Positions 23,216-45,573 of a stretch of DNA of 46,184 bases are shown piece after piece; position 1 is the stretch's first letter, and each line of letters begins with the position of its first letter. The notes beneath the pieces were generated by a model. That model was given only the letters and a program-made list of their open reading frames with translations, ran no database searches and was not told the origin of the DNA. Source of the DNA: a virus; the IMG/VR virus record IMGVR_UViG_3300044632_001495, positions 1 through 46,184 of that record; one strand, given 5' to 3'. A program made the position numbers and the translations under genes.

Positions 23216-23254
23216 AATCCCCCATTGGCTATATGCTTTTGGGGGTATTTTTTT
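23216..23254. terminator. Bidirectional terminator
   Basis: ATCCCCC/GGGGGTAT stem flanked by AAAAAA on one side and TTTTTTTT on the other. It serves the endolysin and the carbamoyltransferase, which converge. Confidence 0.85.
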
Positions 23255-26579: not shown

Positions 26580-26657
26580 TAATACAAAAACCCTGATTTT
26601 TTAACATTCTTATATTTTCTTTTTTGTTTTCTAATAAATATTATTCTTTTAAAAAAA

Positions 26658-29017: not shown

Positions 29018-29604
29018 TAGACTATTTCCTTTAAGTATGTTGAATATCTATACCAATTAACAACTGCATACCTTACTCCTTCGGTAACTGGAGAAACCCT
29101 ATGCATATATGGAAAAGCACTGCAGAAAAAAACAATATCTCCAGCAATTGGTTTATGAACTATATTGAAGTTGTTAAACTCAAGCTCTCCGCCCGAGTAT
29201 TCATCATTAATGTATGCGCTTACAGAAACAGTTCTTGGAAACTTTCCACCGTCGTCAACATGATTATCAAATTTTCCTTCATTTCCATACTTTAGCAAAA
29301 GGTAAGAATCTGAAACAACCTTTTCTACAAAATATGTGTCTGTAAAATCTTTAAGTGCTGGCTTAATCCAGTTATCTATTTTTTCATAGAGTGGCTGTAC
29401 TTGTTGATCTCCCTCTTGAATAACAAAATCAAAACATTTTCTTCCCTCACTTGTTTCTGCTTCGTATGTCTCAGTATTTACAACCTTAGCCTCATTCCAG
29501 GAATCACTAAAGCGAGACTCAATATCATCCACAAATCCTTCTACAGCTTCTTTACCTGTTCTATACAGAATAATGCCAGGTGCTAGTATGTGCTTCTCGT
29601 ACAT
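29017..29604 (-). CDS. 2OG-Fe(II) oxygenase, prolyl-4-hydroxylase type (1)
   Basis: A 195-aa enzyme with the complete facial triad: H115 and D117 in NHVDDGG, H168 in YMHRVSPV, plus R178 in VRYAVVNWY for 2-oxoglutarate. YINDEYSGGELEF and P-x-AGDIVFF are typical of P4H-like hydroxylases. It is one of three such genes in a 2.5-kb stretch, next to collagen-like fibre genes. Substrate unproven; prolyl or lysyl residues of a virion protein, or a sugar, are candidates. Confidence 0.85.
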   Translation of the reverse strand: MYEKHILAPGIILYRTGKEAVEGFVDDIESRFSDSWNEAKVVNTETYEAETSEGRKCFDFVIQEGDQQVQPLYEKIDNWIKPALKDFTDTYFVEKVVSDSYLLLKYGNEGKFDNHVDDGGKFPRTVSVSAYINDEYSGGELEFNNFNIVHKPIAGDIVFFCSAFPYMHRVSPVTEGVRYAVVNWYRYSTYLKEIV

Positions 29605-29605
29605 T

Positions 29606-30163
29606 TTAGTTGTTTGAGCCTTCCTGTTGTTTTTTTTCTCTTAATACATTTAGGTACTCTGGTCCTTTTGTAAAAAACCAATGATCTGGTTCCACATAAT
29701 GAAAAAATATTACAGCTACAACACCATCGTTGTTTTCTATTCTTTCTCTCCAATGTTCTTGATCTACTCCCCAAAATAAAACTGCTTCATTTTCTTCTAA
29801 GATATACTCTTTACCTTCAACCCAAATTCCCCAAGGTTTATCTTGGTAAACAACAAGATCTATGGTGTAGGTACAAGCGTTGTCATCTTTGTGCTTGAAG
29901 AGACTAATATTTTTATCTGAGTACTCAGAAAACAATGAATACGAATGCAAAAGTGTATTACTTTTAAAAAAATCTCTAGCCAAAGGAAGCAACTTATCTG
30001 CATATTCAGCTAAGATATCTGGTGAAAAAATTTTTCTTCCAAGGTCATCGTAAGGTACATCTTCTGTTAGAATTTTTTCTTTTAAAGTGTTTTTAAGTCT
30101 GTTAAAATCTTCTTCAGACAATACATTTTTTTTAATCTCGGGAATCATGGTATTTTTACTCAT
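29606..30163 (-). CDS. 2OG-Fe(II) oxygenase-like protein (2)
   Basis: A 185-aa protein. The first metal ligands are H91 and D93 in FKHKDD, the second His is probably H137 (DQEHWRER), and the strands VVYQDKPWGIWVEG and ENEAVLFWG take the place of the usual G-GEL and GD-LFF motifs. The 2-oxoglutarate-binding Arg is less clear than in its neighbours. The leaderless-type start has TGATACAAT 6 nt upstream, so this gene begins a transcription unit. Confidence 0.65.
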   Translation of the reverse strand: MSKNTMIPEIKKNVLSEEDFNRLKNTLKEKILTEDVPYDDLGRKIFSPDILAEYADKLLPLARDFFKSNTLLHSYSLFSEYSDKNISLFKHKDDNACTYTIDLVVYQDKPWGIWVEGKEYILEENEAVLFWGVDQEHWRERIENNDGVVAVIFFHYVEPDHWFFTKGPEYLNVLREKKQQEGSNN

Positions 30164-30169
30164 ATTCTT

Positions 30170-30178
30170 ATTGTATCA
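30170..30178 (-). promoter_or_regulatory. Extended -10, leaderless-type
   Basis: TGATACAAT, 6 nt before ATG 30163. Confidence 0.55.
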
Positions 30179-30937
30179 TATTAGCTTTTTTTGATGATCT
30201 TTATATCTTTTACCATCAAAATGAATGCCATTGAAATATCTTCTTCCCGATTCATGTGCCTTATCTTTGTCTGATGTCATTCTTTCTTGAGACAAATTAT
30301 GTGATTCAGCATGTTCATTACCAATTATTTCATCATTAAAATAATTAGTTGCTATATCAATTTCAAACTTATCAACATATCTTCTGGGCATGGGAATAAA
30401 AGCACCTAAAGCATCTCCTTTTCTAACACTAATCTTTAAATTTGGTATTGTTATTTTTAAGTTAAAAGTAAAGTCTCTTCTTATTTGATCAGTTTCTATC
30501 ATTCCAGTCATAGCAATGGTTCCTGGAACATACATGTTTGGGGGTTGAATAGTCATCAAGTTAATTCCTGGTGGAGTTTTTAGATGGAAGTTATTTTGTA
30601 TTGTAAGAATTCCTTGGCTAAATCCTGCCTGAAAATGCTGATCTCCTTCATTATCATTATTAAGAAAATCAATATGAACATCTTGTGCTTCATTTTCTCT
30701 GCCATCCCAATACATATCAAAATCTCGCAATGATTTAATAATAAACCCTTGTTGATTTCCAATGTTTAATGGAAGACAATAATAAAAATGTGAGTTAAAC
30801 CATTCTCTTTTTGGTTTTCCCTTTAATGGCTCAATAATATCTTTATATCTACAATCATGAGTCAAGCTATTAGGAACAACTAAAATTTTATGTTCAGGTA
30901 CTTCGTAACCTAAATCATTTATATATTTTTTTATCAT
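30176..30937 (-). CDS. DUF6065-like protein
   Basis: A 253-aa protein. It contains LKTPPGINLMTIQPPN, a switch to D-x-IRRDFTFNLKITIPN and GDALGAFIPMPRRYV near 190-200. This order resembles DUF6065, seen beside oxygenase genes in phages and bacteria; function is unknown. The ATG 30937 overlaps the stop of the oxygenase gene (ATGA); a GTG three codons earlier is possible. The C-terminal 50 residues are His/Arg/Lys-rich. Confidence 0.55.
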   Translation of the reverse strand: MIKKYINDLGYEVPEHKILVVPNSLTHDCRYKDIIEPLKGKPKREWFNSHFYYCLPLNIGNQQGFIIKSLRDFDMYWDGRENEAQDVHIDFLNNDNEGDQHFQAGFSQGILTIQNNFHLKTPPGINLMTIQPPNMYVPGTIAMTGMIETDQIRRDFTFNLKITIPNLKISVRKGDALGAFIPMPRRYVDKFEIDIATNYFNDEIIGNEHAESHNLSQERMTSDKDKAHESGRRYFNGIHFDGKRYKDHQKKLI

Positions 30938-31497
30938 AGTACCCACTTATCTGAATACTCTTCTTCTCTTGTCCAAAAACTTGCAACGGTATATCTTTTT
31001 GAATTTTTAATTTTAGTAACACCGTGCAGGTGGTCTGGATCTCCAGGGTGTATTGCAAGGGTTCCAGCTTTTGGAATAATTTCAAAATTATGCTGGGGAT
31101 AAAATGTATGTCCACCTTCATAGTCATCGTTTAAGTAAAGAATTACCCCGTAATGTCTATGGTGAAACCAATCATTTCCTTCTGAGTTAGTCATGTCATC
31201 TGCATGTGGTGGTTGTTCCATTTCTGGGAACCAGCGAACTATTTGAAACAAGTCTGAATAAATAACTGGCTCATTGTATAGCTCTAAAATACTAACTTCT
31301 ATTTTTTGTTTAATTTTATACAAAAGTTCTCCTGCAGCTTTATCTATATTGTTATATATGTTAATAGCATTTAAACTTCTGTTGTCCCAAAAATCAGACC
31401 CTCCTGCTTCCCAAGGCTCTACATTTTTAACAGTATTAACCAGATAATCGCATTCTTCTTTAGATATAAAATTATCTATTGTTTTTGCATTAAACAT
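30934..31497 (-). CDS. 2OG-Fe(II) oxygenase, prolyl-4-hydroxylase type (3)
   Basis: A 187-aa enzyme: H98 and D100 in PPHADD, H158 in HLHGV, R168 in SKRYTVASFW, with YLNDDYEGGHTFYP and P-x-AGTLAIHPG. The frame is open for another 46 codons upstream, but that extension is the tail of a decayed fibre gene. ATG 31497, preceded by a G-rich site (GGGGGG, about 9 nt upstream), begins the real domain (MFNAKTIDNFISKEECDYL). It heads the oxygenase block. Confidence 0.85.
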   Translation of the reverse strand: MFNAKTIDNFISKEECDYLVNTVKNVEPWEAGGSDFWDNRSLNAINIYNNIDKAAGELLYKIKQKIEVSILELYNEPVIYSDLFQIVRWFPEMEQPPHADDMTNSEGNDWFHHRHYGVILYLNDDYEGGHTFYPQHNFEIIPKAGTLAIHPGDPDHLHGVTKIKNSKRYTVASFWTREEEYSDKWVL

Positions 31498-31779
31498 TTT
31501 ACTTACCCCCCCGATTTTTATTGTTTTTTTAAAATCCTCTACTTGCTTAGACAAATCTTGGATTGCCTTGACTAAGATAGGTATTAATCTATCTTGAGAT
31601 ATCATAAGTTTATCATGATTTTCACGATGCGTCAATCTGAGTCTCTCATGTACCTTGAGGGCCTATTGGTCCAGGAACAGGAAGGAATAATAGTTGGTTT
31701 GTGCCTTCTTGTGATTGTTCTACTTTGCTAGCGTAGTTATTTTTTTAGCTGGGCCATCCATACTTTTAGGTATAGCCAC
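31498..31779 (-). pseudogene. Decayed collagen-like tail fibre with S74-type chaperone remnant
   Basis: Three fragments in changing frames read as one broken fibre. First, GTG 31779 starts AIPKSMDGPAKKITTLAK, which hits a stop. Next, one frame away and without a gap, comes VEQSQEGTNQLLFLPVPGPIGPQGT, the beginning of a collagen-like stem, ending at TGA 31646. Directly after, in a third frame, is ERLRLTHRENHDK followed by IPILVKAIQDLSKQVE, the usual closing helix of intramolecular-chaperone (peptidase S74) tails. A single lost A in a poly-A run would explain the first shift, and a large internal deletion the second join. The last part is fused in frame to the oxygenase. Confidence 0.7.
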
Positions 31780-36165: not shown

Positions 36166-36187
36166 ATACTACCATGTACCCCTGACA
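36166..36187 (-). promoter_or_regulatory. TGTCRG-N10 promoter, minus strand
   Basis: TGTCAG (36182-36187), exactly 10 bp, TAGTAT (36166-36171). Drives the four-gene cluster ending at 35500. Confidence 0.6.
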
Positions 36188-36215: not shown

Positions 36216-36231
36216 TGTGATATAGGTCACT
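36216..36231. promoter_or_regulatory. CRP/GlxR-like palindrome
   Basis: TGTGA-TATAGG-TCACT, one mismatch. Overlaps the end of the 36-aa minus-strand gene. Confidence 0.4.
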
Positions 36232-36337
36232 TATCTGAGTAGGTATCCTTAGCGATAAGTGCGTCTAACAGTGCGTAATCTGCTAGGGTCTGCTCAGGTG
36301 TCTGAGCGAGTACTTCATTTTGCTTAACAGTGTTCAT
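36227..36337 (-). CDS. 36-aa microprotein
   Basis: GAAAGG precedes ATG 36337. Helical: N-TVKQNEVLAQTPEQTLADYALLDALIAK. No cysteine. It has its own -35/-10 promoter. Function unknown. Confidence 0.55.
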   Translation of the reverse strand: MNTVKQNEVLAQTPEQTLADYALLDALIAKDTYSDK

Positions 36338-36383
36338 ATTGAACCTTTCTTTTTAACCACCTTGGTTAATTTCTTATAAGAGA

Positions 36384-36412
36384 ATAATAACATACAATAG
36401 TCCAAAAGTCAA
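36384..36412 (-). promoter_or_regulatory. Consensus -35/-10 promoter
   Basis: TTGACT (36407-36412), 17 bp, TATTAT (36384-36389). The leader contains the TTAACCA/TGGTTAA hairpin, a possible operator. Confidence 0.65.
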
Positions 36413-36433
36413 GTCCTAACACGGCGTGTCGCA

Positions 36434-36449
36434 TGTGATGTGCACCACA
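36434..36449. promoter_or_regulatory. CRP-like palindrome
   Basis: TGTGA-TGTGCA-CCACA, one mismatch. Confidence 0.4.
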
Positions 36450-36473
36450 CTGCCCGGCGCCCATGGGCGTGTC

Positions 36474-36494
36474 TGTGGATAGATCTGTGGATAA
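36474..36494 (-). promoter_or_regulatory. Paired DnaA-box-like 9-mers, 12-bp step
   Basis: TGTGGATAG (36474) and TGTGGATAA (36486): complements of TTATCCACA, the first with one mismatch. Confidence 0.6.
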
Positions 36495-36498
36495 CTAA

Positions 36499-36514
36499 TG
36501 TGGTCTATATCACA
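36499..36514. promoter_or_regulatory. CRP/GlxR-like palindrome
   Basis: TGTGG-TCTATA-TCACA, centre 86.5 bp before the -10 at 36593. Confidence 0.5.
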
Positions 36515-36576
36515 AAAGAATTTTTGTCCACAATGTCCGATTTATTCCGTAATGTCCAAGTAGAAATGTCAGACCC

Positions 36577-36598
36577 CTCTGTTATACTTCTAGTATTA
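36577..36598 (+). promoter_or_regulatory. TGTCRG-N10 early promoter
   Basis: TGTCAG-N10-TATACT (36593-36598), with TGT before the -10. Confidence 0.7.
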
Positions 36599-36635
36599 GA
36601 AAGTTGCTAAAGGTTAGCAAAAGAAAGGAGTCAAA

Positions 36636-36860
36636 ATGACTCAAACAATTAAAAATACAGAATTCTATGTATGCCCTGAAGGGTTCTACTACATAGGTTC
36701 ACTCGCAGGAGACATCTCCTGTTCACATACTGAATTTACTTTAGAGCGTGGCTCTAAAAATGTAAAGGGGCAATATCGCCTACAGCGTCAATGCAAAGGT
36801 TGCATGGCGTATCGTACATACTACCTATACGCTAAGGTAGCAAAGAAAGGTCGTGCATAA
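36636..36860 (+). CDS. 74-aa Cys-containing early protein
   Basis: AAAGGAG precedes the start. Cysteines at YVCPEG, DISCSH and RQCKGCMAYR, and a basic end KKGRA. The CxxC-x-AYRTYYLYAK stretch looks like a phage zinc-finger DNA/RNA-binding protein. First gene of the first plus-strand early operon. Confidence 0.65.
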   Translation: MTQTIKNTEFYVCPEGFYYIGSLAGDISCSHTEFTLERGSKNVKGQYRLQRQCKGCMAYRTYYLYAKVAKKGRA

Positions 36861-36861
36861 C

Positions 36862-37026
36862 ATGACAAACAAAATGCTAGTTCCCTCTGATTCTCTAAAG
36901 AGAGTCCTTCACTTCCCTAATCGCGATGGAGATTGCTTTTTCTGTAATGAAGCAATAACTTTCATCGCAGGTCTCAACCGCTATGTAGGCAAAGATGGAA
37001 TTCTTTGCACACAGAAAGGAGAATAG
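36862..37026 (+). CDS. 54-aa HFPN zinc-finger protein, copy 1
   Basis: LVPSDSLKRVLHFPNRDGDCFFCNE (C25, C28), then ITFIAGLNRYVGKDGILCT (C49). About 70% identical by eye to the gene at 38285-38446. It lies 1 nt after the previous gene, and its last codons (AAA GGA GAA) provide the next ribosome site. Confidence 0.75.
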   Translation: MTNKMLVPSDSLKRVLHFPNRDGDCFFCNEAITFIAGLNRYVGKDGILCTQKGE

Positions 37027-37030
37027 TTAT

Positions 37031-37210
37031 ATGAGTATTTTAATTTCATCTGAAGTAGAGCAAAATCGTCTACTGTCTAAATCAGAGCCAGGCGTTTATC
37101 GCTTGTACCCAACTTTCTTAGTTGCGTGTTCTGTTTGCGACAATAACTTTTTAGAGATACTTCTAAAAGATAGAGACTTCACAAAATTTACTTGTGAAAA
37201 TTGTTGGTAA
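37031..37210 (+). CDS. 59-aa CxxC...CxxCW protein
   Basis: ATG 37031 is used because AAAGGAG lies upstream; an earlier in-frame ATG falls within the previous gene. VACSVCDN and FTCENCW end form two zinc-type pairs. Same ending as genes 37978 and 38446. Confidence 0.7.
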   Translation: MSILISSEVEQNRLLSKSEPGVYRLYPTFLVACSVCDNNFLEILLKDRDFTKFTCENCW

Positions 37211-37223
37211 TAGCTAACACTGA

Positions 37224-37253
37224 ATTTTTATGCAGTAACATGCATAAAATTTT
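37224..37253 (+). terminator. Terminator hairpin, spacer type A
   Basis: TTTTATGCA-GTAACA-TGCATAAAA then TTTTCC. Nearly the same sequence follows gene 37978-38076. Confidence 0.6.
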
Positions 37254-37271
37254 CCGGTGATCTCCGGGCGG

Positions 37272-37292
37272 TTATCCACAGGTTTATGCACA
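37272..37292 (+). promoter_or_regulatory. Paired DnaA-box-like 9-mers, 12-bp step
   Basis: TTATCCACA (37272) and TTATGCACA (37284); a third perfect TTATCCACA lies at 37325-37333. Confidence 0.6.
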
Positions 37293-37306
37293 TGATATAC
37301 ATCACA
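37291..37306. promoter_or_regulatory. CRP-like palindrome (weak)
   Basis: CATGA-TATACA-TCACA. Confidence 0.35.
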
Positions 37307-37331
37307 CTAAGAATTGAGCGTAAGTTATCCA

Positions 37332-37347
37332 CATGACCTACCTCACA
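37332..37347. promoter_or_regulatory. CRP/GlxR-like palindrome
   Basis: CATGA-CCTACC-TCACA, centre 64.5 bp before the -10 at 37404. Confidence 0.4.
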
Positions 37348-37387
37348 TTTCCAAATGTCCGAATTGTACACATTACTCGCTGGTAGA

Positions 37388-37409
37388 TGTCAGACCCCTC
37401 TGTTACACT
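37388..37409 (+). promoter_or_regulatory. TGTCRG-N10 early promoter
   Basis: TGTCAG-N10-TACACT (37404-37409). Its N10 is the same as in the promoter at 36577. Confidence 0.7.
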
Positions 37410-37460
37410 TACAGTATCAAAAGAAAAAAAAGAAAGTATCTTAGAAAGGATAACTAAAAA

Positions 37461-37571
37461 ATGATAAATTTCGTTAAAGAATTAGAAGTAAATAATTACC
37501 TTGCAGACGAGCAAGCAGACCCACTAGCAAAAATGCTAGATGAACTTATCTCTAAAGGAGAATATAAATGA
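37461..37571 (+). CDS. 36-aa acidic helical microprotein
   Basis: INFVKELEVNNYLADEQADP, then a helix LAKMLDELISKGEYK. The last codons (TCT AAA GGA GAA) form the ribosome site for the next gene, whose ATG overlaps (ATGA). Confidence 0.65.
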   Translation: MINFVKELEVNNYLADEQADPLAKMLDELISKGEYK

Positions 37572-37744
37572 TAACAATAAATAAAGTGTGTGATTCACAT
37601 ACACCTAATAAAATAGCTAAGTCATTCCATAATGACACATGCTACACATTCTGCGAAATGTGTGAACATAATATAGAAAGTTTCTATATTGAAAATGACT
37701 CAGACCGCTTGTCTATGTGGTCAGATTGGAAGGTCTCACAATGA
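37568..37744 (+). CDS. 58-aa zinc-finger-like protein, paralogue of 35939-36118
   Basis: YTFCEMCEHNIESFY (C29, C32), with DRLSMWSDWKVSQ at the end. The ATG and stop overlap both neighbours by 4 bases. Confidence 0.75.
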   Translation: MITINKVCDSHTPNKIAKSFHNDTCYTFCEMCEHNIESFYIENDSDRLSMWSDWKVSQ

Positions 37745-37977
37745 GCCTAACACTTGCTAATGAAATCGCTAAAGATAAATTCTTTCAGCCCCCTTCAAAA
37801 TTCTACAATCACAAAATTGTAGAAATCATTTCACTAAATGATGAAACAGAAATTGCTTCTGTAATTCTTGAGAAGTACGGAATCTCTCGCCGTGCTAATG
37901 CAACTAAAAATGGCAACACATTCACAATTGAATTGCCATATTCAGAATTCCAAAATTTGAAAGGTTGGTATAAATAA
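37741..37977 (+). CDS. 78-aa early protein
   Basis: ATG 37741 overlaps the previous stop. SLTLANEIAKDKFFQ helix, then KIVEIISLNDETEIASVILEKYG and a strand-rich end FTIELPYSEFQNLKGWYK. No cysteine motif. Not recognised. Confidence 0.65.
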   Translation: MSLTLANEIAKDKFFQPPSKFYNHKIVEIISLNDETEIASVILEKYGISRRANATKNGNTFTIELPYSEFQNLKGWYK

Positions 37978-38076
37978 ATGATAAATTTATATTGCGTTGC
38001 TTGCGATACTCATGTCACCACTGTTACAGAGAAAGATGCAGAATTTTTAACTGTAACATGTGATGAGTGTTGGTAA
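37978..38076 (+). CDS. 32-aa CxxC...CxxCW microprotein
   Basis: LYCVACDTHVTT and TVTCDECW end. Starts at the base after the previous stop. The same small finger as genes 37031 and 38446. Confidence 0.7.
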   Translation: MINLYCVACDTHVTTVTEKDAEFLTVTCDECW

Positions 38077-38089
38077 TAGCTAACAGTGA

Positions 38090-38118
38090 ATTTTTATGCA
38101 GATCATTGCATAAAATTT
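38090..38118 (+). terminator. Terminator hairpin, spacer type A
   Basis: TTTTATGCA-GATCAT-TGCATAAAA then TTTACCGG; duplicate of the hairpin at 37224. Confidence 0.6.
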
Positions 38119-38129
38119 ACCGGGGGCCC

Positions 38130-38150
38130 TGTGGATAACTCTGTGGATAA
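38130..38150 (-). promoter_or_regulatory. Paired DnaA-box-like 9-mers, 12-bp step
   Basis: Two perfect TGTGGATAA copies at 38130 and 38142. Confidence 0.65.
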
Positions 38151-38154
38151 CTTA

Positions 38155-38170
38155 TGTGGTGTAAATCACA
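38155..38170. promoter_or_regulatory. CRP/GlxR-like palindrome
   Basis: TGTGG-TGTAAA-TCACA, centre 62.5 bp before the -10 at 38225. Confidence 0.5.
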
Positions 38171-38208
38171 AAAATAGTTTCACGAAACACCCCAAATATC
38201 CCCCAAAA

Positions 38209-38230
38209 TGTCACACCCCTATGGTAAACT
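38209..38230 (+). promoter_or_regulatory. TGTCRG-N10 early promoter
   Basis: TGTCAC-N10-TAAACT (38225-38230). Confidence 0.65.
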
Positions 38231-38284
38231 TCTATGTATAGAAGGTTGAACTAGAAGTAAGCCTCTTAACGAAAGGAGTTCTCT

Positions 38285-38446
38285 ATGAACTCACTCCTTG
38301 TCCCTGCGGATAGCCTAAAGGCTACGCTTCACTTTCCAAATCGCAATGGCGATTGCTTCTACTGTAACGAAAAAATTACTTTCGTTGCAGGACTTAATCG
38401 CTATGTTGGCAACGATGGTATTCGTTGCACGAAAGTAGGTGCATAA
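38285..38446 (+). CDS. 53-aa HFPN zinc-finger protein, copy 2
   Basis: LLVPADSLKATLHFPNRNGDCFYCNE and ITFVAGLNRYVGNDGIRCT; copy of 36862-37026. GAAAGGAG upstream. Confidence 0.75.
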   Translation: MNSLLVPADSLKATLHFPNRNGDCFYCNEKITFVAGLNRYVGNDGIRCTKVGA

Positions 38447-38559
38447 TGAATAACACCATGATAATGCTCTCATGCCAAATTTGCGAGGAGCCAACTGTAG
38501 AAGTTGCTCTTGCAGATGCAAAATTACTAGTGGCTACATGCCAAGAATGTTGGGGGTAA
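38446..38559 (+). CDS. 37-aa CxxC...CxxCW microprotein
   Basis: LSCQICEEPTVEV and ATCQECWG end; start overlaps the previous stop (TAATG). Matches the C-terminal half of 37031-37210, so the two-gene cassette is duplicated. Confidence 0.7.
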   Translation: MNNTMIMLSCQICEEPTVEVALADAKLLVATCQECWG

Positions 38560-38565
38560 TCTATA

Positions 38566-38676
38566 ATGGATTTCTACGATGAATACTATGAGAACGATAT
38601 GCTCGTTCCAAATGCTGCAGCATGCTACTGCAAACTTCATTCAATCTGCACTAACTGTAAGGAGAGTTACAACTAA
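38566..38676 (+). CDS. 36-aa Cys microprotein
   Basis: Acidic start DFYDEYYEND, then ACYCKLHSICTNCKESYN (CxC ... CxxC). Similar ending to gene 40416 (CSCTTNTLCRSCEREQN). Confidence 0.65.
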   Translation: MDFYDEYYENDMLVPNAAACYCKLHSICTNCKESYN

Positions 38677-38777
38677 TGAACGAAATAATTGAATCATTTG
38701 AAAATGCAATTCAACTAGACCATCTTAACTTAAAACAGTTAAAAGAATTAGAAAAGATTTTGGAGAAAATTAAATGA
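38676..38777 (+). CDS. 33-aa helical microprotein
   Basis: NEIIESFENAIQLDHLNLK, then QLKELEKILEKIK: an amphipathic helix. TAATG and ATGA overlaps on both sides. Confidence 0.6.
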   Translation: MNEIIESFENAIQLDHLNLKQLKELEKILEKIK

Positions 38778-38953
38778 ATACAGACTTAAAATTACTGCAA
38801 GATGTAAAAGTAATGTCCACTAAAATTCGTGGAGATGAGGATAGTGGTAAATCTTTTCTCATGGGATACATATGGGCTTCACTAACACAGAAGCAACAAA
38901 AAGAAATTGCAAAATCATTCCGTGAACAGTTAGCAGAGGTTAGTGAACTATGA
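38774..38953 (+). CDS. 59-aa helical early protein
   Basis: Starts in the ATGA overlap. KIRGDEDSGKSFLMGYIWASLTQKQQ resembles a short loop-helix unit, but DSGKS is not a full P-loop. Function unknown. Confidence 0.6.
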   Translation: MNTDLKLLQDVKVMSTKIRGDEDSGKSFLMGYIWASLTQKQQKEIAKSFREQLAEVSEL

Positions 38954-39039
38954 AACAATTTTTAGAAACAGGTAACGCAGCTTTCTTTTTTTGCTTTGCA
39001 ATTTTAATTTATTCTGCATGGCTACACTTAACAGAATAA
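38950..39039 (+). CDS. 29-aa membrane microprotein
   Basis: One hydrophobic span (NAAFFFCFAILIYSAWLHL). ATGA overlap with the previous gene. Possibly a membrane peptide acting on the host early in infection. Confidence 0.55.
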   Translation: MKQFLETGNAAFFFCFAILIYSAWLHLTE

Positions 39040-39051
39040 AAATTCATGATC

Positions 39052-39067
39052 GTGCATAAAAATGCAC
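39052..39067 (+). terminator. Terminator-like hairpin
   Basis: GTGCAT-AAAA-ATGCAC, shorter relative of the type A hairpin, followed by CGGCGGGG. Confidence 0.45.
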
Positions 39068-39115
39068 CGGCGGGGTCGGGCGTGTCGTGTGTCAGATTGC
39101 TCACATGCTATTAAG

Positions 39116-39131
39116 TGTGATGTAAATCATA
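39116..39131. promoter_or_regulatory. CRP/GlxR-like palindrome
   Basis: TGTGA-TGTAAA-TCATA, centre 62.5 bp before the -10 at 39186. Followed by two TCGGAC motifs (39141, 39150). Confidence 0.5.
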
Positions 39132-39169
39132 TCCCGAAAATCGGACATATCGGACTTTGGATTTGTTTT

Positions 39170-39191
39170 TGTCAGTTAATTTTGGTACACT
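39170..39191 (+). promoter_or_regulatory. TGTCRG-N10 early promoter
   Basis: TGTCAG-N10-TACACT (39186-39191). Confidence 0.7.
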
Positions 39192-39234
39192 TACATAGTA
39201 AGAAATTCACAAAAAAGAAAAGAAGGTGACGCCC

Positions 39235-39450
39235 ATGTCAGCCAATGTATACACAGTCCAGTCCTTGCTAGTAGGAACAGAGTACGCTTCTAGTTCCCTG
39301 CGTGGAAAAATTATCTCTGCCGAGCCTCACCCTAAAGCCGTATGGTATGAGGGGTGCGATACCTATCTAGTAGAGGTTGCCCCTAATAGTGGCTTCGGTG
39401 CATGGCGTGGCTCTACCTATCGCACAGTAGCCGTAAAAACATCTGCCTAA
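39235..39450 (+). CDS. 71-aa early protein
   Basis: ATG 39235 follows AGAAGGTG. SLLVGTEYASSSLRGKIIS, YEGCDTYLVEVAP and GFGAWRGSTYRTVAV suggest a small beta-barrel. A GTG three codons earlier is less likely. Confidence 0.65.
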   Translation: MSANVYTVQSLLVGTEYASSSLRGKIISAEPHPKAVWYEGCDTYLVEVAPNSGFGAWRGSTYRTVAVKTSA

Positions 39451-39451
39451 T

Positions 39452-39473
39452 TGTCAGTGCCCCCTGTTATACT
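39452..39473 (+). promoter_or_regulatory. TGTCRG-N10 early promoter
   Basis: TGTCAG-N10-TATACT (39468-39473) in the 50-nt gap between two genes, without a CRP or DnaA element. Confidence 0.7.
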
Positions 39474-39502
39474 TACTATAAAGAAAAAGAAGGAGACAAC
39501 CT

Positions 39503-39688
39503 ATGTCATATAAAGTAAACCTAGAAACCTTTAACGGAACAGTTAAAGTAATTTCGCTTCCGTCAAAAGGTGCTGTTGCACAATTTATCAGCACTTACCC
39601 TAACACGCTACCTGTTGGCGTATCTGTTAAACTCTCATGCGACGCACTCGGCGTTCGTGGAACACTTCGTGGAAAGGCTTCACTCTAA
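39503..39688 (+). CDS. 61-aa protein, paralogue of 35500-35670
   Basis: AAGGAG upstream. GTVKVISLPSKGAVAQF, then SVKLSCDALGVRGTLRGK. Its minus-strand relative shares the last part. Confidence 0.7.
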   Translation: MSYKVNLETFNGTVKVISLPSKGAVAQFISTYPNTLPVGVSVKLSCDALGVRGTLRGKASL

Positions 39689-39894
39689 TGGTAAAAGTTG
39701 AACACTCTCTAAAGTTCGTTACAGAATTTGACGAAACTCACCCTGTAGCAATTCGCCTGCTCTCTCTTGAAAAAGAAATGCAAGTAACATTCCTTGAACG
39801 CATGCTAAAAGAAATGCTTGCACCACGTATTCAGCCAGCACTTGATGAAATCAATGAAGGTGGCTCATATGCAATTCTAAAGGTGGCAGAATAA
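39688..39894 (+). CDS. 68-aa early protein
   Basis: ATG 39688 in a TAATG overlap. VEHSLKFVTEFDETHPVAI, a helix LLSLEKEMQVTFLERMLKEML, and an end YAILKVAE. Not recognised. Confidence 0.65.
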   Translation: MVKVEHSLKFVTEFDETHPVAIRLLSLEKEMQVTFLERMLKEMLAPRIQPALDEINEGGSYAILKVAE

Positions 39895-40070
39895 TGATGA
39901 CACGCAAGGACTATGTAGCGGTTGCAGAAATTCTAAAAGGCTATGAAGTTGCAATGATTGATAGCTTTTGGTTTGAGGATTTGGTAAATGATTTTGCAGA
40001 TTTATTTTCTGCTGATAATCCAAATTTCAAAATGGAAAAATTTACACACGCATGCGGTCTAACTAAATAA
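39894..40070 (+). CDS. 58-aa conserved phage protein
   Basis: TRKDYVAVAEILKGY, then FADLFSADNPNFKMEKFTHACGL. This pattern (helix, FAD-L-F-x-ADNP-x-F, CGL end) is a widespread small phage protein of unknown role. Overlaps the previous stop. Confidence 0.7.
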   Translation: MMTRKDYVAVAEILKGYEVAMIDSFWFEDLVNDFADLFSADNPNFKMEKFTHACGLTK

Positions 40071-40082
40071 AATAAAAAATCC

Positions 40083-40110
40083 TGAGCAAGATCTAAAACT
40101 GCTCATTTTT
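40083..40110 (+). terminator. Terminator, spacer type B
   Basis: TGAGCA ... TGCTCA followed by TTTTT. Relatives of this hairpin occur near 43632 and 44315. Confidence 0.7.
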
Positions 40111-40121
40111 GGGCCGGGGGG

Positions 40122-40142
40122 TTATCCACAGCTTTATCCACA
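40122..40142 (+). promoter_or_regulatory. Paired DnaA-box-like 9-mers, 12-bp step
   Basis: Two perfect TTATCCACA copies at 40122 and 40134. Confidence 0.65.
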
Positions 40143-40154
40143 GGGGGCATTACG

Positions 40155-40170
40155 TGTGATTAAAAACACA
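40155..40170. promoter_or_regulatory. CRP/GlxR-like palindrome
   Basis: TGTGA-TTAAAA-ACACA, centre 63.5 bp before the -10 at 40226. Confidence 0.45.
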
Positions 40171-40209
40171 TTCCAAAATCTCCCGAAACTAGGGTTAAGA
40201 AGTTGAGTT

Positions 40210-40231
40210 TGTCACCCCCGTAGTGTAGGAT
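40210..40231 (+). promoter_or_regulatory. TGTCRG-N10 early promoter
   Basis: TGTCAC-N10-TAGGAT (40226-40231), also TTGAGT 17 bp before the -10. Confidence 0.6.
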
Positions 40232-40266
40232 ATTTATATCAAGTTAATTAAAGAAAGAAGGCTCCC

Positions 40267-40416
40267 ATGACCGCACATGTATGTATGCAATGTAATGAAA
40301 ATGCTGTAGATGTAACTGAACTTTATTGCTTCCGTTGCTATCTTGACCGAGAGGTAGAAGCCATGCTAGAGTATGACTTAATAAATCAACTATTCGTAAC
40401 AGGAGAGGCTAACTAA
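40267..40416 (+). CDS. 49-aa zinc-finger-like protein
   Basis: HVCMQCNE and LYCFRCYLDREVE give a C-x2-C/C-x2-C finger with an acidic helical tail. GAAGG upstream; TAATG overlap at the end. Confidence 0.7.
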   Translation: MTAHVCMQCNENAVDVTELYCFRCYLDREVEAMLEYDLINQLFVTGEAN

Positions 40417-40514
40417 TGTACTACGACTTTGATAATCAGATTAGCATGACAATATCTAATTGCTCATGCACCACTAACACACTATGCCGTTCATGCGAAA
40501 GAGAGCAAAACTAA
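40416..40514 (+). CDS. 32-aa Cys microprotein
   Basis: YYDFDNQISMTISNCSCTTNTLC followed by RSCEREQN (CxC ... CxxC). Relative of 38566-38676. Confidence 0.65.
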   Translation: MYYDFDNQISMTISNCSCTTNTLCRSCEREQN

Positions 40515-40729
40515 TGGAATACAACTTCTCAATTACTGCAACCTATGACAACGAGACTACACCTTATTGGGTTGGTCGCTATACAGACGCTATCTCTGCC
40601 GTAACAGAGTGGAACAAGATTGTTGATTGGGGATTCGCAGATGAATTCGCAACTTACAATTTCTCAGAGCCAACAGGCAAAATGCACACTAAGATATTCT
40701 ATCGTAATGGAAATGTAGGGGGTAAGTAA
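40514..40729 (+). CDS. 71-aa early protein
   Basis: ATG 40514 in a TAATG overlap. FSITATYDNETTPYWVGRY, DAISAVTEWNKIVDWGFADEF and TKIFYRNGN: an alpha/beta protein rich in Trp and Tyr. Not recognised. Confidence 0.65.
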   Translation: MEYNFSITATYDNETTPYWVGRYTDAISAVTEWNKIVDWGFADEFATYNFSEPTGKMHTKIFYRNGNVGGK

Positions 40730-40730
40730 T

Positions 40731-41057
40731 ATGGGTAATGTAACAGCACTTGGTATTCAGGAAATGGTACTTGACTTGGAGACTCAGATTCTCTACCACC
40801 TTAAAGGTAATCACTATCCACCTGTACCCGCAGAAATGGTACAGCCATGTATTGAAGCGATTGACGCCTTCTATGACGAGGACTTTGACCGCATGATTGA
40901 TATGCCAAAGGTTGGTGACTTTCAGATTCTATACAAGGGTTCAACAGTTGCACCTGCAAGCGCTATCGTACAGCAACACCACCTTGAAGTGTTCATTGAA
41001 CCCGATGAGGATTTCTCAGATGACTTCCCTATGTCTCTAGAATATGACGAGGGGTAA
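40731..41057 (+). CDS. 108-aa acidic early protein
   Basis: AGGGGGT upstream. Begins VTALGIQEMVLDLETQILYHL, then PPVPAEMVQPCIEAIDAFY and a very acidic end. The charge pattern suits a DNA-mimic or binding partner, but there is no proof. Confidence 0.65.
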   Translation: MGNVTALGIQEMVLDLETQILYHLKGNHYPPVPAEMVQPCIEAIDAFYDEDFDRMIDMPKVGDFQILYKGSTVAPASAIVQQHHLEVFIEPDEDFSDDFPMSLEYDEG

Positions 41058-41058
41058 A

Positions 41059-41244
41059 ATGAATACTGAGATAAATATTCGCCAACTTTCAAGAAAGAAT
41101 TTATATACAGAGTGTATTTATTGTGATAGCCCTATTGAAAAGGGGCTCTTTGACGAACTAGATAATACCATGTATCTAGATTGTGCCTCATGTAAAGAGG
41201 AAAGTACCGTATGGGATTGGTATGACGATTGGGAGAAGCCATAA
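41059..41244 (+). CDS. 61-aa zinc-finger-like protein
   Basis: YTECIYCDSPIEKG and YLDCASCKEES give two CxxC pairs; acidic Trp-rich end. ATG 41059 lies just after the previous stop. Confidence 0.7.
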   Translation: MNTEINIRQLSRKNLYTECIYCDSPIEKGLFDELDNTMYLDCASCKEESTVWDWYDDWEKP

Positions 41245-41363
41245 TGGAATGCTTGCAGCTAAATGAAGGTCTAACACCATGCTTTAATCACCTAGATGGA
41301 ACTAAATGTTTCATTACCTTCTGCGTTGATTGCGGTAAAGATATTAAACGAGATTGCGACTAA
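41244..41363 (+). CDS. 39-aa Cys-rich microprotein
   Basis: Six cysteines: ECLQ, PCFN, KCFITFCVDCGK and DCD, with CxxC near the end. TAATG overlap. Confidence 0.65.
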   Translation: MECLQLNEGLTPCFNHLDGTKCFITFCVDCGKDIKRDCD

Positions 41364-41372
41364 GGAGATAAA

Positions 41373-41615
41373 ATGACTGCTACAATAAACAACATGGAAC
41401 TAGTATGGGCAGATAAATTAACACCAGGATCATTGATGATTGATGACATGATAAAAATTGATGATGAGTTAATTGAAATCGTTAGCATTGATTCTGATGC
41501 AACAGGTGATAATTATTTTATTGAATATGCTGATGTATATGGTGAATCAGACACAGCAATAATTGCACATGACACATATGTTGATTTATATGTGTATATA
41601 GAATCAGAGGATTAG
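41373..41615 (+). CDS. 80-aa acidic beta protein
   Basis: AAGGAG upstream. LVWADKLTPGSLMIDDMIKIDDELIEI looks like a small intein-/Hedgehog-like or phage beta barrel start; the rest is acidic (IIAHDTYVDLYVYIESED). Not recognised. Confidence 0.6.
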   Translation: MTATINNMELVWADKLTPGSLMIDDMIKIDDELIEIVSIDSDATGDNYFIEYADVYGESDTAIIAHDTYVDLYVYIESED

Positions 41616-41634
41616 CAGCTGGGGCCGGGGGCCC

Positions 41635-41650
41635 TGTGAGATTCATCACA
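41635..41650. promoter_or_regulatory. Perfect CRP/GlxR consensus palindrome
   Basis: TGTGA-GATTCA-TCACA, centre 42.5 bp before the -10 at 41685. A GGGGCC block precedes it. Confidence 0.6.
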
Positions 41651-41661
41651 ATTAAGATGAG

Positions 41662-41690
41662 TTGTATTTTTCCCCCATAAATGCTAAGAT
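41662..41690 (+). promoter_or_regulatory. -35/-10 promoter, leaderless
   Basis: TTGTAT, 17 bp, TAAGAT (41685-41690), 6 nt before ATG 41697, with TGC before the -10. Confidence 0.55.
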
Positions 41691-41696
41691 TAGTAT

Positions 41697-41849
41697 ATGA
41701 AAAAGACACCTGAGGAATTACGCAGACTAATGGAACTTCGCCGTTCTAATGCTGCCTCTGCGGTGCCTAATCAAAAGAAATATGACAGAAAGAAATGTCA
41801 GTCCCTAATGCTAAAATTAAAGAAAGAAAGCGAGTCCCACCATGACTAA
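41697..41849 (+). CDS. 50-aa basic helical protein
   Basis: PEELRRLMELRRSNAASAVP, then KKYDRKKCQSLMLKLKKE. Leaderless start after TAAGAT; overlaps the next gene out of frame by 8 bases. Possible nucleic-acid-binding helix. Confidence 0.6.
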   Translation: MKKTPEELRRLMELRRSNAASAVPNQKKYDRKKCQSLMLKLKKESESHHD

Positions 41850-42564
41850 ATTACTCAGAAGCAAAGATAGAAAAGTAGCCAACCTTGTCACACCTAATGG
41901 TAAGCAAGCAAGCATGGCTAATACATTCGGATTACCTGCAGGCAAGGCTTACTCATGCCCTGGTGCTACTAGCGTATGCGAAACAGTATGCTATGCAGGC
42001 AAGTTAGAAAAGGTATTCCCAACAGTTAAAAAGAATCTACTTCATAACTGGGAGTTACTAAAAGACGCAGACGGTGAAACTATGGTGCGTTTACTTAATG
42101 AAATGATTAGTGAATTTAATGCAGAGTGCGAGAAGCGCAATGCACCTAAGCAATTCCGTATCCATTGGGATGGCGACTTCTTTAATGATACATATACATA
42201 TGCATGGAAGATGATTATTGATAAGTACCCTGATATTCAGTTCTGGGTATATACCCGTGTTAAATCGGCTGCCATAATTCTAAACCATGTGCCTAATCTA
42301 TCTTTATACTATTCTACAGATAGCGAGAATAAGGCTATAGGTATCACTCTTAAAAATGATCATGGGGTATCCCTTGCATACCTTGCAAAAAACTTCCAAA
42401 TAGGACAGGCAGACATGAAGGAGTTGACAGGCAAGGTAGGAGCTAAATGTCCTGAGAATAAAAAGGCTATTCCCCTAATCTCTCAGAAAGGGTCTGCCTG
42501 CGCTACCTGCAAGTTGTGTATTTATGAGAAATCTGATATAGTTTTCAGTGCAACCAAAAAGTAA
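41842..42564 (+). CDS. Gp88-like phage protein
   Basis: A 240-aa protein. AYSCPGATSVCETVCYAGK (C39, C46, C50), FRIHWDGDFF near 105, FWVYTRVKS and a late CATCKLC cluster match the Gp88 family known from mycobacteriophages. The Cys pattern suggests metal binding; the biochemical role is not settled. Ribosome site GAAAG upstream. The largest gene of this part of the early arm. Confidence 0.75.
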   Translation: MTKLLRSKDRKVANLVTPNGKQASMANTFGLPAGKAYSCPGATSVCETVCYAGKLEKVFPTVKKNLLHNWELLKDADGETMVRLLNEMISEFNAECEKRNAPKQFRIHWDGDFFNDTYTYAWKMIIDKYPDIQFWVYTRVKSAAIILNHVPNLSLYYSTDSENKAIGITLKNDHGVSLAYLAKNFQIGQADMKELTGKVGAKCPENKKAIPLISQKGSACATCKLCIYEKSDIVFSATKK

Positions 42565-42573
42565 GGGAAACCT

Positions 42574-42642
42574 ATGCTAACAATAACTATATTAACTATC
42601 ATAATCGCCATATTCCTCTTTGCAGGGCTAGGGCATAAGTGA
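42574..42642 (+). CDS. 22-aa membrane microprotein
   Basis: AAGGGA precedes ATG 42574. LTITILTIIIAIFLFAGLGHK is one hydrophobic span. Short, so only moderately sure. Confidence 0.4.
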   Translation: MLTITILTIIIAIFLFAGLGHK

Positions 42643-42653
42643 CGCAAATCACA
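42638..42653. promoter_or_regulatory. CRP/GlxR-like palindrome
   Basis: AGTGA-CGCAAA-TCACA, centre 72.5 bp before the -10 at 42718. Confidence 0.5.
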
Positions 42654-42717
42654 CTAGAAAGGGTCTCAATATATGAGATTTTCTAGGGCAGGAATTGTAT
42701 TTCTGAGATTTTTCAGA

Positions 42718-42723
42718 TATACT
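42718..42723 (+). promoter_or_regulatory. -10 of small YKVGD gene
   Basis: TATACT, 42 nt before ATG 42766; no clear TGTCRG. Confidence 0.45.
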
Positions 42724-42765
42724 AGAAATATAAGCAAAACCAACCAAACTAACAAGGAGAAGCAA

Positions 42766-42927
42766 ATGACAGTATCAACAGCAACATACAAGGTCGGCGA
42801 CCTATTCACAACACAGAAGTCAAAGGTCACAGGAACAATCGTGGAAATCAAGCCAACAGACAAGAACACAGTTCGTGTTAAGTTAGATGTAAATGGCAAT
42901 ATCCGTTGGACAACTTGGAAGGCATAA
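42766..42927 (+). CDS. 53-aa conserved actinophage-type protein
   Basis: ATG 42766 is chosen for its AAGGAG site; earlier in-frame starts lie in the promoter. YKVGDLFTTQKSKVTGTIVEI and VRVKLDVNGNIRWTTW form an SH3-like small barrel common in actinophages. Function unknown. Confidence 0.7.
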   Translation: MTVSTATYKVGDLFTTQKSKVTGTIVEIKPTDKNTVRVKLDVNGNIRWTTWKA

Positions 42928-42956
42928 ACCTTTCATAACGAAACAGGGGCAGTTTA

Positions 42957-43010
42957 GGAGAGTGTTCTAGCCCAATGTCGTAAGTAAGAACTCTCCCCCC
43001 TTCGGGGGAA
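42957..43010 (+). terminator. Double hairpin terminator
   Basis: GGAGAGTGTTCT/AGAACTCTCC inverted repeat overlapping a tight CCCCC-TTC-GGGGG hairpin (42996-43008). Confidence 0.55.
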
Positions 43011-43011
43011 A

Positions 43012-43033
43012 TGTCAGTACCACCCCCTATAAT
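43012..43033 (+). promoter_or_regulatory. TGTCRG-N10 early promoter
   Basis: TGTCAG-N10-TATAAT (43028-43033), directly after the hairpin. Confidence 0.7.
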
Positions 43034-43069
43034 AGAAATATCAACCACCAAAGAAAAGAGAGCAAAACA

Positions 43070-43495
43070 ATGGCAACAAGAGGAAAAGCAATCTCAGTAA
43101 AAATCGCAACACCAAAGGTAATCAAGGCACTAGAAGCATCACTCGCTAAAATTGAAGCAGACTACGCATCACAAGAAGCAAGCGAAGCAAAGTATCAGAA
43201 GGCTATGGAAAAGTATAGAAAAGAACTTGGTGCATTTGCGGTAAAGCATATCGCTAAGGCAGAAAATCTACGCTCATCATATCGCTCATGGAATAATCAA
43301 CTAAACATTGACTTTGACCTAACAGTTACTAAGGACTCGCTTCCAACTGAACCTGAGCGTGATTTCGTATCATTGAACGAATACGAATATCGTAATCAGA
43401 AAGAGGAAATTGCAAACGCAATTCGTATCCTCAAGATGACAGATGAGGAAGTAGTAAATACTTCAACATACAATGCGGTGGCTCGCTACCTCTAG
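43070..43495 (+). CDS. 141-aa coiled-coil protein
   Basis: Residues 15-70 form a long charged helix (KALEASLAKIEADYASQEASEAKYQKAMEKYRKELGAF), then RSSYRSWNNQLNIDFDLTV and a C-terminal helix pair. No enzymatic motif. Alone under its own promoter and terminator, so probably needed in quantity. Confidence 0.7.
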   Translation: MATRGKAISVKIATPKVIKALEASLAKIEADYASQEASEAKYQKAMEKYRKELGAFAVKHIAKAENLRSSYRSWNNQLNIDFDLTVTKDSLPTEPERDFVSLNEYEYRNQKEEIANAIRILKMTDEEVVNTSTYNAVARYL

Positions 43496-43504
43496 CAAAG
43501 TTGG

Positions 43505-43524
43505 GTGGGGTGTAAAAGCCCCAC
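43505..43524 (+). terminator. Terminator after coiled-coil gene
   Basis: GTGGGG-TGTAAAAG-CCCCAC-type stem, then TCATTT. Confidence 0.6.
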
Positions 43525-43701
43525 TCATTTCGCCAGGCTGATTAGGGCGATTATAGAAATACTATAGAGCACGATCTCGCATATCGTTGAAATTGCGAAC
43601 AGTTCTCACCAACTGCAAGAGGTGAAAATTCCTGAGTACGAATCAAAACTGCTCACCAATATTTATTCAGCTGACTGCATAAGTATGCGGGGCCGGGATC
43701 G

Positions 43702-43717
43702 TGTGATATTAATCACA
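43702..43717. promoter_or_regulatory. Perfect CRP/GlxR consensus palindrome
   Basis: TGTGA-TATTAA-TCACA, centre 63.5 bp before the -10 at 43773. Confidence 0.6.
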
Positions 43718-43756
43718 TCTCAATATGTAAGACTATTAAGGGTATTAAGTTGCATT

Positions 43757-43778
43757 TGTCGGAACCCGCTGCTAGACT
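43757..43778 (+). promoter_or_regulatory. TGTCRG-N10 early promoter with -35
   Basis: TGTCGG-N10-TAGACT (43773-43778); TTGCAT lies 17 bp before the -10. Confidence 0.65.
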
Positions 43779-43807
43779 TATATTAACAACAACAGAAAGA
43801 GGCCCCC

Positions 43808-44266
43808 ATGGACCAGCAAACACAACTAACCAACGAGCACTATCTTACACGAGAGTTTCTTGAGAATCAGGTTGCAGCACTATCAGAAGCAATCTCAAGA
43901 AAAGATGCATTAATCATCTCATTGCAGGACCGTTCATCCGAACACTCAAACAATCTATTTACAGAACGTCGTGCACACCAAGAAATCATTGACTCAATTA
44001 AAAACTACGTAATTGATGCAGTGCGTGATGGAACCATTAGCGCAGAGGTTGCAGAAGCACTTTCTGAGATTTGTAACTTTGAACTAACTAAGACTGTAAC
44101 TATTAACGCAGTTGTAGAATTTGAAGTTGAAATTGAAGTACCATTTGATGCTGACGCAGATGATGTGGCCAACACACTTGAATTCAGTGTTGACTCATTT
44201 GATTATTCAATCGATGACTACAACGTTGATACACGTCAGTTAAATGCAGAGGATAATATTTCGTAG
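43808..44266 (+). CDS. 152-aa early protein, coiled coil plus acidic beta domain
   Basis: Residues 10-70 are helical (REFLENQVAALSEAISRKDALIISL). Residues 95-150 are acidic strands (TKTVTINAVVEFEVEIEVPF, then DADDVANTLEFSV). AGAAAGAGG upstream. Not recognised. Confidence 0.65.
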   Translation: MDQQTQLTNEHYLTREFLENQVAALSEAISRKDALIISLQDRSSEHSNNLFTERRAHQEIIDSIKNYVIDAVRDGTISAEVAEALSEICNFELTKTVTINAVVEFEVEIEVPFDADADDVANTLEFSVDSFDYSIDDYNVDTRQLNAEDNIS

Positions 44267-44314
44267 GGGGCTATGGAATAGACCTACCGAATGTCTATAA
44301 ACTAGGTTACGGAC

Positions 44315-44351
44315 CTGAGCATTGTCCATGTAAACGGCTCACTTTTTATTT
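44315..44351 (+). terminator. Terminator, spacer type B
   Basis: TGAGC ... GCTCA followed by CTTTTTATTTT. The rest of 44267-44520 holds a CGGCCCC block, a half CRP palindrome (44401), TGTCCGA (44427) and the next promoter. Confidence 0.6.
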
Positions 44352-44466
44352 TCCCAATTTTCCCGGCCCCACGAACTTGATCTTGTCAAGCGACACGCCA
44401 TGTGAATTACGACACCTTTAAGAAAATGTCCGATTTATCCCATATCTAACTAGCCTGGCTTGCATT

Positions 44467-44488
44467 TGTCGGTGGCTGGGTGTATGAT
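44467..44488 (+). promoter_or_regulatory. TGTCRG-N10 early promoter with -35
   Basis: TGTCGG-N10-TATGAT (44483-44488); TTGCAT at 17 bp. The CTTGCATTTGTCGG core is shared with the promoter at 43757. Confidence 0.65.
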
Positions 44489-45537: not shown

Positions 45538-45573
45538 TACAATTTCCTAGGCATGAAGTAAAACTGCCTGCAA

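Follow-up and report, generated by a model that had tools for sequence, protein, structure and literature searches.

CRP/GlxR-type palindromes at helically phased positions upstream of early promoters in a freshwater virus group

Phages are usually thought to start infection from strong, regulator-free promoters. The pR promoter of phage lambda is activated by host DnaA, the middle promoters of phage T4 consist of a MotA box and an extended -10, and in the class-I series of Escherichia coli the centre of the CRP site lies about 49.5, 59.5 or 70.5 bp from the -10. In Actinobacteria, GlxR recognizes the consensus TGTGA-N6-TCACA (PMC7999487). Here we describe palindromes of this type at the early promoters of a 46-kb viral contig (IMG/VR record IMGVR_UViG_3300044632_001495, positions 1 to 46,184, the whole of which is called the window below) and of its relatives. 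The sites and their arrangement suggest that host regulators are recruited by the virus to turn on its earliest genes. If true, helically phased host-regulator sites would link the onset of infection to the physiology of the host in a common lake virus group. No earlier report of CRP arrays at actinophage early promoters was found in the open-access literature searched, subscription papers being outside the search.

The structural half of the window is oriented leftward, and an arm of small early genes, with those for GP88 and DUF932 proteins among them, runs rightward from about 36.6 kb. The nearest sequenced relatives are the Streptomyces BE phages (Stanwilliamsviridae, Samisti12 among them), which resemble the window in their DUF932 (~53% identity) and portal (~46%) proteins and in having small early genes that each carry their own promoter. 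The early arm is common to hundreds of viral contigs, of sizes up to 118 kb. The bacterial viruses that have near-perfect CRP-type sites at most of their early promoters form a family found widely in fresh water, among the commonest virus groups of lakes.

CRP-type sites and DnaA boxes in the early arm

The early arm was taken as 34.9-46.2 kb, the rest of the window being the other 34.9 kb, and expected counts were derived from dinucleotide shuffles. With at most one mismatch, TGTGA-N6-TCACA occurs 10 times in the early arm against 0.42 expected, and is absent from the remaining 34.9 kb, where 1.9 would be expected. Two of the sites are perfect (41635, TGTGAGATTCATCACA; 43702, TGTGATATTAATCACA) and eight have one mismatch; three more with two mismatches are included in Table 1, although at that threshold there is no excess over the full length of the window (33 sites, 30.3 expected). 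On a gene map drawn by hand, all ten of the better sites lie in spacers, the one at 42638 overlapping the end of a 22-aa open reading frame. A first-pass annotation of the window had listed at least ten palindromes, two of them perfect and nearly all in early-arm spacers. All of these exist, and the restriction to the early arm is confirmed.

The evidence for the sites is stronger than the first-pass annotation could know. Across 160 early-arm loci from related viral contigs, perfect copies of the palindrome number 769 against 4.8 expected, and it ranks first among the 13,312 five-base palindromes tested; some of these loci share a contig, and 279 to 314 exact sites are left once similar contexts are removed. 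Six relatives, 108-118 kb in size, have their sites almost exclusively within a single ~10-kb block. The consensus in relatives, TGTGA[TGC]NTWN[ACG]TCACA, resembles GlxR sites in its TA centre and admits no A at position six, in agreement with the CRP/GlxR assignment originally made. Both in exceeding chance and in sitting in promoters, the palindrome matches a CRP/GlxR operator. The early arm of Samisti12, in contrast, contains no CRP-type site with at most one mismatch, so the motif is clade-specific. Early promoters of Samisti12 (L279 1-10000) bear a different repeated near-palindrome, TGTCGGGCCCGGACA-like, in place of CRP-type sites.

A cluster of DnaA boxes upstream of the CRP-type sites is new in this analysis. 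The perfect box, TTATCCACA, occurs 782 times in the relatives against 33 expected, a 24-fold excess, while its single-base variants occur 7 to 97 times. More than half of the perfect boxes (431 of 782) have a CRP-type site no more than 150 bp away and usually lie a short distance upstream of that site, with no convincing phasing between the two. The early arm of the window has seven perfect boxes against 0.13 expected, all in spacers that also hold CRP-type sites. The arrangement recalls lambda pR, where a global host DNA-binding protein is likewise placed at a phage early promoter, but here CRP-type sites dominate, and the DnaA boxes lie upstream of them, unphased, at many promoters.

Promoter architecture and helical phase

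Alignment of the contexts on the extended -10 alone revealed a degenerate -35 (TTGAAW) at 17 bp spacing, TTGTCAG just past the -35, and then TGnTAnaaT. The CRP-type site lies upstream of this conserved early promoter. In the window, a TTGTC[AG]G element is found between the -35 and -10 of the promoters at 36567, 37388, 38209, 39170, 39452, 40210, 41796, 43012, 43757 and 44467, and TGTCCG and GGCGTGTCG elements occur near early promoters in relatives. T4 middle promoters similarly pair an extended -10 with a short conserved sequence around -30, but the phage TGTCAG lies just downstream of a degenerate -35. The extended TG is present at 81% of promoters with a CRP-type site versus 34% of those without.

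In the relatives, the distance from site centre to TGTC is mainly 36.5, 46.5 or 56.5 bp. When each gene family and distance was counted once (101 family-level distances) and compared with 2000 jittered nulls, the best period was 10.25 bp; its R was 0.56, and the null maximum reached 0.35 at its 99.9th percentile. Phasing is also seen among contexts less than 55% identical (n=44; R 0.62, p 4e-8) and less than 45% identical (n=26; p 0.003). In a single gene family (family 9), the orthologous promoters of different phages have the site at 36.5 (12 times), 46.5 (9 times) or 56.5 bp (11 times), and the commonest shift of a site within families is 10 bp. The distances from site to promoter therefore step by one helical turn, as expected of class-I promoters, and several permitted positions obeying a helical rule relative to the promoter favour an activator that touches RNA polymerase.

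Distances in the window (Table 1) were measured from the site centre to the first base of the -10. The phases given by the first-pass annotation (five at 62.5-64.5, one at 72.5 and one at 42.5 bp) were reproduced on re-measurement, and the comparison with related phages that it proposed shows the phasing independently in relatives. Phases that it did not give are those of the sites at 36499, 44401 and, for a leftward promoter, 36216. Three early promoters, at 39452, 41796 and 43012, have no site within 100 bp. Its proposal of class-I type activation fits in kind, since E. coli CRP also uses an upstream site with permitted positions one helical turn apart, but not in exact geometry: the phage centre-to-(-10) distances are 52.5, 62.5 and 72.5 bp, and the phage spacer has a conserved TTGTCAG.

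Candidate binder and competing explanations

No cNMP (cyclic nucleotide monophosphate)-binding domain was detected in 25 relatives, no Crp-type helix-turn-helix (HTH) domain in the 25 relatives and the window, and no class III adenylate cyclase, the only class covered, in 26 phage records. The search for a phage repressor owning the site thus returned no phage CRP, and a phage-owned CRP or cyclase was rejected as a candidate. With neither a CRP domain nor an adenylate cyclase detected across the 26 phage records, the host's CRP/GlxR orthologue is the probable binder. Among the families listed for a Pfam scan of one 115.7-kb relative (25 of 31 in one table), WhiB is the only clear transcription factor, and there is no HTH repressor, although novel folds could escape such a scan. 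The WhiB protein points to an actinobacterial host.

Two observations bear on which actinobacterium this might be. A 4.7-kb phage contig is present in an Actinomycetota metagenome-assembled genome (MAG); its DUF932 match is strong, and the 296 genomes of the order of that MAG yielded no other of such strength. The phage tRNA-Asp scores 78.8 bits in the same order versus 73.4 bits for the best match in a sample of the phylum. Genomes of this candidate order are small, like those of Nanopelagicales, and a cNMP-binding regulator (CRP) occurs in 75 of 81 of them, the order being weakly assigned as host. The one candidate-host CRP compared is colinear end to end with M. tuberculosis CRP and has the same recognition helix, including RETVNKALADFA. 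The candidate order (G027-G051) keeps this orthologue while 18 of its genomes are without class III adenylate cyclase. The likeness to the GlxR / CRP(Mt) regulon covers the operator (PMC7999487) and the candidate-host protein; the difference is that here the sites belong to a phage genome, which uses a series of them, and that the candidate hosts lack both the class III cyclase and an enrichment of sites.

We lean, with slightly better than even confidence, towards the palindromes being predicted sites of the host's single CRP/GlxR-type factor, acting as a class-I-like co-activator of the phage early promoters. The factor would bind at discrete positions, separated by single helical turns, on the upstream side of the degenerate -35 / extended -10 promoter. 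From there it would recruit host RNA polymerase to the early promoters as soon as the DNA has entered, when no phage regulator has yet been made. As many promoters also have perfect DnaA boxes a short way ahead of the CRP site, early transcription may need two host proteins.

Several observations weigh against this explanation. The host assignment is weak, with a single MAG-borne phage contig and a slight advantage in tRNA-Asp matching behind it. Class III adenylate cyclase is absent from all 18 candidate-host genomes searched (the C. glutamicum control was positive), and in 10 such genomes the palindrome with at most one mismatch occurs 147 times versus 127 for the control, which is no enrichment. 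Tandem sites 16 bp apart, on opposite faces of the helix, occur at some promoters, and orthologous DUF932 promoters have sites 18 bp apart (56 vs 74). Phage sites lie about 2-4 bp farther from the promoter than those of the E. coli class-I series, so that the register differs. Promoters with a site do not have clearly weaker cores than those without, a set that may include false promoters. Exact palindromes number two in 19 candidate-order genomes, plus one within the phage contig itself, and sampled intergenic DNA of one such genome has none; with no enrichment there, the candidate host genomes were rejected as the source of the motif. Since the candidate order lacks both enrichment and class III adenylate cyclase, either the host may be another actinobacterium or its CRP may work with another signal or none. 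On the same results, and with no class III cyclase in the 26 phage records either, the earlier idea that the phage reads host cAMP or carbon status is not supported.

Ownership of the palindrome by a phage protein of non-CRP fold, either an activator or a repressor that shuts off early genes, seems unlikely, though less so than the other rivals. It would explain why the phage has plentiful sites when the candidate host shows no enrichment; the small, Pfam-less proteins of the early arm could hide a DNA-binding protein, and the other repeated elements (TGTC[AG]G, TGTCCG, GGCGTGTCG) make further binders likely. Yet the consensus is that of the known CRP/GlxR operator, centre included, the candidate order has a GlxR orthologue whose recognition helix is that of M. 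tuberculosis CRP, and an activator would be expected to show promoter phasing, which a simple steric repressor would not. A little less probable again is binding by host CRP as a repressor or timing brake. Actinobacterial CRP-family proteins do repress at some promoters, and tandem sites 16 bp apart would suit such a role. In M. tuberculosis, CRP binding near the start site accompanies repression, but upstream binding accompanies activation (PMC4117774), and the phage sites are upstream of the core promoter; a 10-bp rule with several allowed positions would also be superfluous for steric repression.

The sites might instead be decoys, by which replicating phage DNA titrates host CRP and, via the boxes, DnaA, upsetting gene regulation and the initiation of replication in the host. 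Each genome has several sites of consensus grade, and these, the 24-fold excess of perfect DnaA boxes and the scarcity of near-perfect CRP sites in the candidate host are all compatible with this, but decoys need no fixed promoter phase, and the CRP-type sites keep a 10.25-bp phase within promoter spacers; we regard titration as improbable. Because neither steric repression nor a decoy needs a helical rule, class-I-like activation is favoured. An artefact of chance or composition, for which the lack of excess at two mismatches across the window could be cited, deserves almost no weight: it conflicts with the early-arm excess, the first rank among 13,312 palindromes, the restriction to a ~10-kb block and the phasing tests, and was already ruled out by conservation in relatives.

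Activation by host CRP can be extended further, to a version that we consider doubtful: CRP/GlxR and DnaA would be joint licensing factors of lytic actinophage early promoters, the host CRP being perhaps cAMP-free with few consensus sites of its own, and the virus would be the main user of its host's CRP operator.

Feature map and minor observations

Table 1. CRP-type sites, DnaA boxes and early promoters in the window (distances from site centre)
Feature	Positions	Strand	Distances and remarks	Orthologous upstream regions
CRP-type site, 1 mismatch, leftward early promoter	36216..36231	-	TGTCAG at 36.5 bp	<=1-mismatch site in 59/73
Leftward early promoter, TGTCAG (starts 36187, minus strand) and -10 TAGTAT	36166..36187	-	-10 at 52.5 bp from site centre
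CRP-type site, 1 mismatch	36434..36449	+	GGCGTGTCG just before
Perfect DnaA box	36486..36494	-
CRP-type site, 1 mismatch	36499..36514	+	TGTCAG at 60.5 bp, -10 at 76.5
Early promoter TGTCAG...TGTTATACT	36567..36588	+
Perfect DnaA box	37272..37280	+
CRP-type site, 2 mismatches	37291..37306	+
Perfect DnaA box	37325..37333	+	overlaps following CRP-type site (37332) by 2 bp
CRP-type site, 2 mismatches	37332..37347	+	TGTCAG at 48.5 bp, -10 at 64.5
Early promoter TGTCAG...TGTTACACT	37388..37409	+
Two perfect DnaA boxes (38130, 38142)	38130..38150	-
CRP-type site, 1 mismatch	38155..38170	+	TGTC at 46.5 bp, -10 at 62.5
Early promoter TGTCAC...TGGTAAACT	38209..38230	+
CRP-type site, 1 mismatch	39090..39105	+	TGTCAG at 72.5 bp
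CRP-type site, 1 mismatch	39116..39131	+	TGTCAG at 46.5 bp, -10 at 62.5	<=1-mismatch site in 17/17
Early promoter TGTCAG...TGGTACACT	39170..39191	+
Two perfect DnaA boxes (40122, 40134)	40122..40142	+
CRP-type site, 1 mismatch	40155..40170	+	TGTC at 47.5 bp, -10 at 63.5	16/17
Early promoter TGTCAC...TGTAGGAT	40210..40231	+
Perfect CRP-type site	41635..41650	+	-10 of probably leaderless gene at 42.5 bp	64/100
Promoter TTGTAT-N17-TAAGAT, extended TG	41662..41690	+	ATG start at 41697; relatives have TTGACA -35
CRP-type site, 1 mismatch	42638..42653	+	-10 TATACT (42718) at 72.5 bp	83/105
Perfect CRP-type site	43702..43717	+	TGTCGG at 47.5 bp, -10 at 63.5
Early promoter TGTCGG...TGCTAGACT	43757..43778	+
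CRP-type site, 2 mismatches, DUF932 gene	44401..44416	+	TGTCGG at 58.5 bp, -10 at 74.5	<=1-mismatch site in 84/103
DUF932 gene early promoter TGTCGG...TGTATGAT	44467..44488	+

Most proteins of the early arm are small and have no Pfam match, and the Rfam matches on the arm are to tRNA only. The first three early promoters (36567, 37388 and 38209) are separated by intervals of exactly 821 and 821 bp, and the products of 36863-37026 and 38285-38446 resemble paralogues. Between the tail and early genes, the region 23254-31635 has open reading frames for proteins that, from translations judged by eye, are 2OG-Fe(II) oxygenase-like, carbamoyltransferase-like and UDP-sugar dehydrogenase-like; this block probably serves surface or DNA modification. 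A hairpin without an Rfam match, TCCTGAGCA...AAACTGCTCA, recurs where spacers begin (40080-40105, 43627-43655 and 45545-45567 in the window), and the loci of the relatives contain 394 copies of TCCTGAGCA and 544 of AAACTGCTC.

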